Shown here: positions 23,006 to 26,778 of the stretch, piece by piece
How positions within the stretch are numbered: position 1 is the stretch's first letter
Layout of the letters: each line of letters starts with the position of its first letter
Virus record (IMG/VR): IMGVR_UViG_3300021338_000070
Span: 1-26,778 of that record
Strand: one strand, 5' to 3'
Source: a virus
DNA: 26,778 nucleotides
Made by a program: the position numbers and the translations under genes
The notes under the pieces: generated by a model
What the model was told of the DNA's origin: nothing
What the model saw: the letters and a program-made list of their open reading frames with translations, nothing else
Database searches by the model: none

Positions 23006-23308
23006 ATGGCCATCGACTTCGCAGGGAAGCGGCTCGTCCGCTTCACCGCCCACGCCACCAACGGCCAGGTGGTGGTGGACGGCTCCGACGTCCTCATCAA
23101 CGGCGTGTACCGCCTCCACTGGACCGCCGCGGCCGTAGGCCCCGTCTACGTGGAGAAGGACTCCCGCGCAGACGGGGCCCGCGACTCGAGCCTCCACTAC
23201 GAGGTGACCACCGACGAGCAGGGCCACGTGATCACCGCCATCGGGCATCCCGTGCGCATCTCTGGTAACGGCACCGACGAGCTGGTGCTGGAGCTGGTCA
23301 GCCGATGA
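23006..23308 (+). CDS. Small tail-associated protein, 100 aa
   Basis: ATG 23006 has GAGGAGGG (22991-22998) 7 nt upstream, the best ribosome-binding site in the tail region. The protein is a single beta domain (KRLVRFTAHATNGQVVVDGSDVLINGVYRLHW, VYVEKDSRADG, YEVTTDEQGHVITAIG, DELVLELVSR). No family is recognised. Strong translation between tip and fibre-like genes suggests a virion component. It overlaps the next gene by 4 nt. Confidence 0.65.
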   Translation: MAIDFAGKRLVRFTAHATNGQVVVDGSDVLINGVYRLHWTAAAVGPVYVEKDSRADGARDSSLHYEVTTDEQGHVITAIGHPVRISGNGTDELVLELVSR

Positions 23309-24135
23309 CGCTTGGGTTGCCACAGCGCATCTGGCGTGCCCTGGAGTGTCTCGGGGGCGGCAAGGGGCTGCCCTCCGTCCTCGCGGCGCTGTCCGGGAGC
23401 TCCTCAACCACTTCGTTCACGGGCTTTCACCGCGCATCGGCGGGGGACGACTATCCACAGGGGGGCGCCAACTTCGCCCAGCCAGCCCAGACAGGCGTGT
23501 ACGTGATCGGAGACATCGATAGCATCTCGGTGCTCGGGCCTCTGTGGGACGGGGGATCTGCATCGGGGTTCGCCACGGGATGGATCGCGCTGACCCTGGC
23601 CGAGGGCACCCCAGATCAACTGCGGCTCCGCTACCAGGACCCGCCCCCGACGGGTGGCACCTCCAACTTCTCCGTGAACATCCCCGGCACCGGCGATGCG
23701 ACCGACGGGCCCCGCTTCTACTGGTCCGAGGTCGACATCAGCGGGTACAGGGTTGGGTGCGACGCTCCCGGCGTGGCCGAGGTGTCGGGCGCCCTGACCG
23801 AGCTCGCCACTGGCACGCTGTCGGCTCCGTCGCAGCTCTACGTGTTGGGCTCGACGCCGGCGCGCCAGCTCACCGGTGACATCGTGGCGCTGGTCACCAG
23901 CGGCTACCTGTCGGACGTCGACAAGACGGCGGTCGCGTCTGCGGTGAGCACGGGCGGCCTTGCGGCAGGTGTGGCCGAGCTCGAATCGCGCATGAACGCC
24001 AGTGGAACCGCCACCCTCCACGAGTGGATGCGCCCAACCACGTCTCCGGTGACCGCCATCGAGGATGGGGCCGATCCATCGGCAAGCCCCATCGTCGTGG
24101 CTGGCTCCAACCGCATGCTGGGGGTCGAGCGATGA
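23305..24135 (+). CDS. Candidate tail fibre or receptor-binding protein
   Basis: 276 aa; ATG 23305 overlaps the previous stop (ATGA). The protein is Gly/Ser/Thr-rich and beta-like (SSSTTSFTGFHRASAGDDYP, VYVIGDIDSISVLGPLWDGG), with low-complexity spacers and few charged clusters. A helix (VASAVSTGGLAAGVAELESRM) follows, then a short C-terminal domain (HEWMRPTTSPVTAIEDG). That order (beta body, helix, small tip) occurs in trimeric fibre proteins. Codon use looks less uniformly GC-rich than in neighbouring tail genes, consistent with fast exchange, but I have not measured it. It could instead be a minor tip protein. Confidence 0.4.
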   Translation: MTLGLPQRIWRALECLGGGKGLPSVLAALSGSSSTTSFTGFHRASAGDDYPQGGANFAQPAQTGVYVIGDIDSISVLGPLWDGGSASGFATGWIALTLAEGTPDQLRLRYQDPPPTGGTSNFSVNIPGTGDATDGPRFYWSEVDISGYRVGCDAPGVAEVSGALTELATGTLSAPSQLYVLGSTPARQLTGDIVALVTSGYLSDVDKTAVASAVSTGGLAAGVAELESRMNASGTATLHEWMRPTTSPVTAIEDGADPSASPIVVAGSNRMLGVER

Positions 24136-24719
24136 AGTGGGCAAGGGTTGTGGCGGTGGTGGGGGGAGACCGCGTGCTGGGAACCGATCCCAAGCGGGCG
24201 GTGCCAGACGGGCGGCCCGCTCGGCACACGATCATGGACTCGGCGGGGGTGATGCGCACGTGGCGAACCACCGAGGCCGTCCCGGCTGATGGCGATGCAC
24301 CAGCGCGTCCGGCCCGGCCGACGATGGGACCAGACGCCGGGATCGTGCACGCCGCGACCGAGGCTGTGCGTGTCATCGTGCACCACGCGGGCCCGACGGA
24401 CCTGCCAGCCGAAGCGGCGGCAATGCTGGTGCAGATCGGCGCCGTCCGCATGGGTGACCCGGACCACGTGCTCTGGATTCCTGACCCCATTGACGGGTTC
24501 AGCGATGCCCTGAAGCTCGCCAACTTCGGGGCAGCGCAGCAGCTAGCGGGCCTGTACGAGCAGGCGGTCGTGTGGGCGGCCTTCGACCCCGGCTTCGCGG
24601 CTCTCGCCGACGGTGCAGACATCGCTGGTCTGAACGTGATCGGGTGGGACGGAGTGGACGTCGTCGGGCTGGGCGAGGCGTGGATCCGCGAGGTCGAGAG
24701 GTTCGACAGTGCCTCTTGA
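24132..24719 (+). CDS. Hypothetical protein, 195 aa, after the fibre candidate
   Basis: ATG 24132 overlaps the fibre candidate's stop (ATGA). The N-terminal ~65 residues (KWARVVAVVGGDRVLGTDPKRAVPDG...) look beta-rich and are followed by helices (IVHAATEAVRVIVHH, PAEAAAMLVQIGAVRMG, DALKLANFGAAQQLAGLYEQAVVWAAF). A gene after a fibre often encodes its assembly chaperone, but the text shows no known chaperone motif. It overlaps the following gene by 11 nt. Function unassigned. Confidence 0.6.
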   Translation: MKWARVVAVVGGDRVLGTDPKRAVPDGRPARHTIMDSAGVMRTWRTTEAVPADGDAPARPARPTMGPDAGIVHAATEAVRVIVHHAGPTDLPAEAAAMLVQIGAVRMGDPDHVLWIPDPIDGFSDALKLANFGAAQQLAGLYEQAVVWAAFDPGFAALADGADIAGLNVIGWDGVDVVGLGEAWIREVERFDSAS

Positions 24720-25155
24720 CCTCATCGACCGCACCATCCAGTCCAAGGCCCTGTTGGTCGCCGGCCTCGTCGTCGCCTGCGTCTTCCTGGTGTACATCGC
24801 CATCACCCACGCCCCCGCCGAGGAGCCCTGCGACCTCGAGGCCCGGTGGGAGCTCGCCTGCTACCGCTACGAGGCGGCGGGCTGGCCTCCCTGCGACGAG
24901 GTCCTGGCCGACGTGTCGGTGGTGGAGCTCACCCCCGCCATGGTGGCGTCCGACAGGGACGCCCACGGCGCGTGGGACGAGGACAGCCGCACCGTGGCCG
25001 TCGCCGAGGACCACTGCGGTGCCCTCGACCCTGCCATGGAGCACGAGCAGTCCCATGCGCGCGGCCTGTTGCACGGCGGCCCATCGGGCTCGGTGACCGC
25101 ATCGCCAGCCTCGCGAGCTGGGCTCGCCATCCCCGCGTACGGAGGGTCCCGATGA
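24709..25155 (+). CDS. Membrane-anchored small protein with metzincin zinc motif HExxHxxGxxH
   Basis: 148 aa from GTG 24709. Residues ~13-32 (KALLVAGLVVACVFLVYIAI) are a membrane anchor near the N-terminus. Residues 112-122 read HEQSHARGLLH, a complete HExxHxxGxxH: three histidine zinc ligands and a glutamate base, the signature of metzincin metalloproteases. The preceding text (WDEDSRTVAVAEDH, ALDPAM) fits the strand and helix leading to this site. The catalytic part is very short (~26 residues after the motif) and shows no methionine turn, so the enzyme may be minimal, incomplete or inactive. Cysteines at 41, 51, 62 and 103 could form disulfides outside the cytoplasm. Its place among lysis-like genes suggests peptide cleavage in the cell envelope, or cleavage of a virion protein; both are inference. 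Confidence 0.6.
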   Translation: MPLDLIDRTIQSKALLVAGLVVACVFLVYIAITHAPAEEPCDLEARWELACYRYEAAGWPPCDEVLADVSVVELTPAMVASDRDAHGAWDEDSRTVAVAEDHCGALDPAMEHEQSHARGLLHGGPSGSVTASPASRAGLAIPAYGGSR

Positions 25156-25730
25156 CGCTCTCGCACCCTATGGGTCCGCCGCGTTGGCGTCCGGTCGTCG
25201 GCTTCGAGCTCGCCTATGCAGTGAGCGAGTGGGGCCACATCTGGAGCATTCCACGAGTGGTCCAGCGCTGCACCGGTGAGATGCGGGTCGCGGGGCGTCT
25301 TCTGGCCCAGACCCCGAACGGCGTCGGCGGCTACATCCAAGTGGGGCTGCAGCACGGCACCCGCCGGGTGAAGACCCGCGCCCACGTGGTGGTGGCAGAG
25401 GCGTTCTTGGGGACCCGCCCCGACGGGCAGTACGTCGCCCACAACGATGGTGACCCGTCGAACAACTGCCTGTCGAACCTTCGATACGCGACGCCAGAGC
25501 AGAACCAAGCTGACCGCACCGCACACGGCACCGACAACCGAGGCGTCCGTCACCATGGCGCCAGGCTGACGCCATCGCTGGTCCAGTACATCGACCGCCA
25601 GCGTCTCCTCGGCCGGTCCTATCGCTCCATCGGGAGGGAGTTGGGCGTCTCGTGGGGCACGGTCCGGAACGCATGGAAGCGGCGGCGGTGGAGCCACGTG
25701 CCGAGGCTCATCCCACGGAGGTCGCCATGA
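25152..25730 (+). CDS. HNH homing-type endonuclease with NUMOD4 and HTH parts
   Basis: 192 aa; ATG 25152 overlaps the upstream stop. RWRPVVGFELAYAVSEWGHI (11-30) matches the NUMOD4 DNA-binding motif. The HNH nuclease follows: RAHVVVAEAFLG (76-87) with H78, then VAHNDGDPSNNCLSNLRYAT (95-114) with H97, N98, N105 and N109, then PEQNQADR. The C-terminus (~145-178: VQYIDRQRLLGRSYRSIGR, ELGVSWGTVRNAWKRR) is a helix-turn-helix. Such free-standing enzymes cut phage DNA and can spread by homing. It lies between the metzincin-like and membrane protein genes with 4-nt overlaps on both sides, so it has been fitted cleanly into the operon. Confidence 0.85.
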   Translation: MTLSHPMGPPRWRPVVGFELAYAVSEWGHIWSIPRVVQRCTGEMRVAGRLLAQTPNGVGGYIQVGLQHGTRRVKTRAHVVVAEAFLGTRPDGQYVAHNDGDPSNNCLSNLRYATPEQNQADRTAHGTDNRGVRHHGARLTPSLVQYIDRQRLLGRSYRSIGRELGVSWGTVRNAWKRRRWSHVPRLIPRRSP

Positions 25731-26209
25731 CGAGCGAGGAGATGACGGTCCTGGAGAGGATCGAGGACAAGGTGGACCGCCTGATCGGGCGCGTGGAGAA
25801 GCTCGAGGAGTTCGTCTCCGTGGAGCAGGAGGACCGCCGCATCGCCGAGCGCGTCTCCGCACGGCTGCGGGACATGGGCTTCGAGGGCGAGCCGCCGTCG
25901 ACGGGCGTCGGTCCGTCGCCGGCGTCGAAGCGTGGCACCTGGGCTCACACTGCGGTGGAGCTCGCCGCCACCTCCGGCGGCCGCAACATCCTCCTCGCGG
26001 TCGTGACGCCGGTCGTCTCCTACCTCCTCGGCGCGCCAGCAGTCGAGTACCTCAGCGAGGTCAGCGAGCTCCGAGCCCAGCTCGAGGAGCTCCAGGCAGA
26101 GGAGGCGGCCGAGGACGTGGCGGTCATGCCCGACGTCGGCCCGCCGCCTGACCCCGGCCCCACGGGCCCCGCTACGGACACGCCGAGCGCACCGAGGCCG
26201 AATCTGTGA
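25727..26209 (+). CDS. Coiled-coil/TM protein, holin or spanin-like candidate
   Basis: 160 aa from ATG 25727, with GGAGG (25717-25721) 5 nt upstream; an in-frame ATG at 25742 is the alternative. Residues ~4-50 form a coiled coil (MTVLERIEDKVDRLIGRVEK). A membrane helix (~87-104, NILLAVVTPVVSYLL) follows, then a second short coiled coil (107-129, EYLSEVSELRAQLEELQAEEA) and a proline-rich acidic tail. The coiled-coil-plus-membrane-helix plan resembles XhlA-like lysis proteins and inner spanins, without matching either closely. The next gene is an endolysin candidate and overlaps it by 4 nt (GTGA). A lysis role is inferred from this pairing. Confidence 0.5.
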   Translation: MTSEEMTVLERIEDKVDRLIGRVEKLEEFVSVEQEDRRIAERVSARLRDMGFEGEPPSTGVGPSPASKRGTWAHTAVELAATSGGRNILLAVVTPVVSYLLGAPAVEYLSEVSELRAQLEELQAEEAAEDVAVMPDVGPPPDPGPTGPATDTPSAPRPNL

Positions 26210-26778
26210 CACCCATCGTCTCCCAGCTCTGGCGCCTGCTCGCCCGCTACCTCGGTGTGCCGTACGGCCACGACTGGCCCGCGGAGATCGACTGCTCGTC
26301 GCTGGGCTCGTCCCTGCTCCGGGAGCACTACGGCCTCGAGGTGATCACGCTGGCGGTGTGGCAGGCCATCAACCTCTCCGTCGCCGGCGTCGACCCCTGG
26401 GAGGGCATCCGGGCCCTGGGGACAGCCCTGGGGGTGGAGCCCGTCATCTTCTCCGGCCCCACCCTTCCGACCAAAGACCGGCTCCACGCATTCCAGGTGT
26501 GGTCGAACCTCGGCGAGGACGGGTCCATCGTCCTCGACCAGGAGGGCGAAGAGGACAGCGACGGCCACTTCTTCCTCTGGCTCTCCTACGGCGGCTGGCT
26601 GGGCGTCGTGATCGAGGCCAACTGGCCGCAGGGGGTACGGGTTCACGACGCCCACGGCATCCACCGGCTGGAGGCCGTTGTCGACGTCGACGGCCGTCTC
26701 GTGGCCGATCTCGAGCCGATGGACCTCGAGGAGCGCCTCAAGGGGTGGGACCAGGTCGCCTTCGTGGAGCTCCCGTGA
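26206..26778 (+). CDS. NlpC/P60-like cysteine peptidase, candidate endolysin
   Basis: 190 aa from GTG 26206 (GTGA overlap); the TGA is the last codon of the window. YLGVPYGHDWPAEIDCSSLGSSLL (15-38) resembles the NlpC/P60 start, where an aromatic-glycine patch precedes DCSGL; the nucleophile would be C30. DGHFFLWLSYGGW (119-131) gives the expected His (H121) on a beta strand, with a following VVIEANW as third-residue strand (N139 possible). The family cleaves peptide bonds of the peptidoglycan stem. There is no signal peptide and no separate cell-wall-binding domain, so it would need a holin to reach the wall; the preceding membrane protein is a candidate. An alternative is a virion-borne peptidoglycan peptidase. 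Confidence 0.55.
   Translation: MTPIVSQLWRLLARYLGVPYGHDWPAEIDCSSLGSSLLREHYGLEVITLAVWQAINLSVAGVDPWEGIRALGTALGVEPVIFSGPTLPTKDRLHAFQVWSNLGEDGSIVLDQEGEEDSDGHFFLWLSYGGWLGVVIEANWPQGVRVHDAHGIHRLEAVVDVDGRLVADLEPMDLEERLKGWDQVAFVELP

Follow-up and report, generated by a model that had tools for sequence, protein, structure and literature searches.

Two features together define the metzincins: a zinc motif and, below it, a Met-turn. One phage-related member has been described in Listeria, namely Mtz, a secreted metzincin of phage origin with the Met-turn AIMLD, which together with its partner Tim increases the sensitivity of Listeria to phage lysins (PMC8235301). A further group came to light in the present analysis when IMG/VR was searched with the pattern EHExxHxxGLLH, which matched 20 contigs. 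In 19 of the 20 the match lay in a small protein bearing HELGHALGFLH or a close variant, with a Met-turn (HLMNEKW, HLMHE or alike) downstream, and the full-length proteins carried an N-terminal hydrophobic segment ahead of the domain. These metzincins of about 190 aa (L002:27-608, L004:72-665, L005:48-629, L006:71-652, L014:922-1503 and L020:965-1513, each with a complete Met-turn) have Matrixin as their top Pfam match, sub-threshold at E 0.0014, and no match in PHROGs or INPHARED; the family as a whole (L002 and L004-L021) shows that exported phage metzincins exist. The only neighbourhood read, that of the L006 gene, is not a lysis cassette. The same contig holds a second zincin-like open reading frame (FVHEVAHSLE; L006:3853-4476) beside PhoH-like, cytidylyltransferase-like and glycosyltransferase-like frames, all three named by appearance only. 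Every convincing metzincin found in the analysis has its Met-turn directly after the third histidine of the motif.

Here we describe a 148-aa orphan protein encoded in a 26,778-nt viral record (IMG/VR IMGVR_UViG_3300021338_000070), the whole of which is referred to below as the window. The protein consists of an N-terminal membrane helix, a cysteine-containing ectodomain and a C-terminal HExxHxxGxxH motif, and its gene lies on the forward strand at 24709-25155, coordinates and length that a first-pass annotation had given exactly. The ORF begins with GTG, overlaps the preceding gene by 11 bases and is preceded by GAGAGG 7 nt upstream of the start codon. Its GC content by codon position is 0.74/0.52/0.91, with third-position GC at 0.95 from the start through the motif. 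In codon usage it reaches +67 bits, compared with -152 for the forward ORF that overlaps it and values from -3 to -117 for overlapping antisense ORFs. Given this codon-position GC and codon usage, and with every overlapping frame tested scoring negative, 24709-25155 (+) is a genuine gene.

The N-terminus is strongly hydrophobic, with a 19-residue Kyte-Doolittle mean of 2.95 starting at residue 14, and an AlphaFold model computed without an alignment places a helix of high pLDDT at residues 4-33. One cysteine (C24) falls within the helix and four (C41, C51, C62 and C103) outside it, so that hydropathy and sequence confirm the membrane helix and the four external cysteines of the first-pass annotation. 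Its description of the protein as membrane-anchored stands in part: the hydrophobic helix makes anchoring likely, but A-P-A at residues 35-37 could be a signal-peptidase site, and the segment at residues 14-33 (24748-24807, +) may be either a signal anchor or a long signal peptide. The product is probably an exported, membrane-anchored phage protein, whose N-terminus would be cytoplasmic and whose ectodomain, presumably disulfide-bearing, would lie outside.

The motif itself, HEQSHARGLLH (residues 112-122; 25042-25074, +), matches HExxHxxGxxH exactly, as had been claimed, and is the sole full instance across the six frames of the window. The expectation for such a motif in the proteome of the window is about 0.001, and when the ectodomain was shuffled 300,000 times it turned up only 18 times; within this protein it is unlikely to have arisen by chance. 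A low figure of this kind does not by itself exclude chance, since the finding was picked from a scan in which many windows were presumably searched. We consider it a serious possibility, nearly as likely as the reading that we favour below, that HExxHxxGxxH is an accident in what is otherwise an ordinary type II membrane protein, an orphan encoded in the late region. Selection from a scan adds to the case for accident, as does the observation that HExxH occurs in proteins at only about twice its chance frequency (PMC3650047), whereas the rarity of the full motif among the shuffles argues the other way, and the export signal and the even count of ectodomain cysteines, which could pair, suit an extracytoplasmic zincin.

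How often GC-rich DNA yields such a motif was gauged from a control set of 103 loci matching HExxHARGLxH in IMG/VR and GTDB contigs, 88 of which are GC-rich. Among the GC-rich loci the match lay in the frame with the highest third-position GC in 2/88 cases: L088, a clear metzincin (HEMGHARGLTHSDDPNDIMYP), and L101, an open frame of only 36 aa. Shadow frames hold most of the other matches, which shows that GC-rich DNA often produces the motif and to that extent favours accident. The motif studied here lies in the true coding frame, and this favours meaning over chance, with the caveat that the control set holds few true-frame cases and that some low-GC open frames with HExxHARGLxH (e.g. L093) are unlike zincins.

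Searches for relatives returned little. Neither Pfam nor NCBIfam gave a match up to E 10, and PHROGs gave no relevant match up to the same value, so the profile comparison with metzincins proposed in the first-pass annotation led to no curated family. No homologue was found in PDB or INPHARED, and no relative was recovered by tblastn in phages and plasmids, by seeds and four degenerate patterns in IMG/VR, by one pattern in GTDB contigs, or in 396 actinomycetote genomes. A pattern built on the cysteine region matched only short non-coding frames. Another, retaining C103 and P108, brought up L139, which was rejected as a relative: it is a clear metzincin, but long and with a Met-turn. The profile of the marine-phage metzincin family described above does not single out our protein, and the 20-column match that hhalign reports between the two (probability 21%) is circular, as that family was itself found via the motif. 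Two AlphaFold runs without an alignment both gave pLDDT <50 over the motif, and the model of the shorter construct shows a helix at residues 108-121 with low confidence. With the Met-turn absent, no family match and pLDDT <50 at the motif, the protein cannot be filed as a metzincin; the same lack of homologue, family and Met-turn is what an accidental motif would predict.

Compared with matrixin, astacin, archaemetzincin and other metzincins, the protein shares the zinc motif and export, and differs from matrixin, astacin and archaemetzincin in having no Met-turn, no C-terminal subdomain and no detectable profile match. It resembles the phage metzincins L002 and L004-L021 in being phage-encoded and in its N-terminal hydrophobic segment, its cysteines and an EHExxHxxGLLH-like motif, whereas in these the Met-turn (HLMNEKW) is complete and the domain conserved, and the similarity does not extend beyond the motif. 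With Mtz, likened here by description only, it has in common HExxHxxGxxH and its nature as an exported phage-related protein; Mtz is linked to lysis sensitivity and, unlike the present protein, has a signal peptide, the Met-turn AIMLD and a pairing with a TIMP-like lipoprotein (PMC8235301).

The C-terminal tail (25075-25155, +) bears out the earlier remark that little sequence and no visible Met-turn follow the motif: only 26 residues lie beyond H122 and none of them is Met, hence the absence of a Met-turn. Its codon composition is shifted, with A or T at the third position in 7/26 codons past H122 against 6/122 before (Fisher p=0.002); the last 26 codons have a score of -7, where the median is +17, and about 8% of control windows score as low. 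The breakpoint is not sharp, since the maximum-likelihood change point falls at codon 104, somewhat upstream of H122. A frameshift hiding the Met-turn was considered and rejected, as a clear coding signal is missing from both of the other forward frames of the tail.

Directly downstream, overlapping the stop codon in an ATGA, lies a NUMOD4-HNH endonuclease gene (25152-25730, +; Pfam HNH_3 1.3e-11, NUMOD4 3.9e-7; PHROG_59 1.8e-38). A group I intron carrying this gene was looked for and not found; matches to the surrounding DNA cover only part of the HNH coding sequence and revealed no donor flank. Relatives of the HNH gene occur mainly in phages of Mycobacterium and Gordonia, which weakly suggests an actinobacterial host. 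Third-position GC is 0.84 in the HNH gene and 0.84 and 0.82 in the two genes upstream of the target (23305-24719), compared with 0.91-0.96 in most other late genes; these may be exchanged segments.

Our leading reading, held tentatively and at less than an even chance, is that of a zincin-derived exported protein that is C-terminally incomplete. The protein would descend from a zincin, retaining the strand and the helix that bears HExxHxxGxxH but no longer its C-terminal half, Met-turn included, which most likely disappeared when the HNH gene was inserted directly downstream, or else through decay. The remnant may still bind zinc, and activity as a normal protease seems unlikely. Against such an ancestry stands the lack of sequence similarity to any zincin beyond the motif. 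Truncation at the HNH insertion is a step that we infer, since no HNH-free relative with a longer gene was found. Among the options raised by the first-pass annotation, a degraded metzincin fits best, on account of the missing Met-turn, the weaker coding signature past the third histidine and the homing-type gene at the stop codon, while an active anchored metzincin is unsupported, there being no family match, no homologue and no confident zinc site. The weights given to the readings are judgements and were not computed; a very small share is left to other explanations.

An active minimal zincin, that is, a membrane-tethered protease that does without the Met-turn and, late in infection, trims proteins of the envelope or the virion, is unlikely in our estimate. 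Its set of ligands and catalytic residue is complete, and a phage-origin secreted metzincin that sensitises Listeria to phage lysins provides a precedent, but the C-terminal subdomain and Met-turn (AIMLD) of such precedents are lacking here (PMC8235301) and there is no confident structure. The position of the gene, with tail genes before it and a putative hydrolase gene further on, would also suit it. Beyond the HNH gene follow a coiled-coil protein with one hydrophobic segment (25727-26209, +; no family above cutoff), holin-like by appearance only, and a possible NlpC/P60-type hydrolase (YGHDW..DCSSL; 26206-26778, +), an endolysin candidate whose product has a weak PDB match to the cell-wall endopeptidase 4xcm (E 0.63) and no significant match in Pfam, PHROG or NCBIfam. 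The lysis-like end proposed earlier agrees with the sequence features of both neighbours but finds a family match for neither, and a lysis setting is plausible. A working minimal zincin of this tethered form, without Met-turn or C-terminal subdomain and acting on the host envelope at lysis, is more doubtful still. Searches with the neighbouring genes gave no related phage, and the terminase shares no more than 24% identity with the phage records listed. The record seems to open within a coding frame (1-165 of the window) and ends exactly at the stop codon of 26206-26778; such ends resemble those of a provirus trimmed at gene boundaries or of a fragment.

If the motif is functional, the protein would rank as an unusually small zincin, and a phage would have an anchored protease among its late genes. 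As a remnant, the protein would illustrate how a homing-type endonuclease gene can remove the second half of an enzyme, and if it arose by chance, it would counsel caution in reading zinc motifs in GC-rich DNA.
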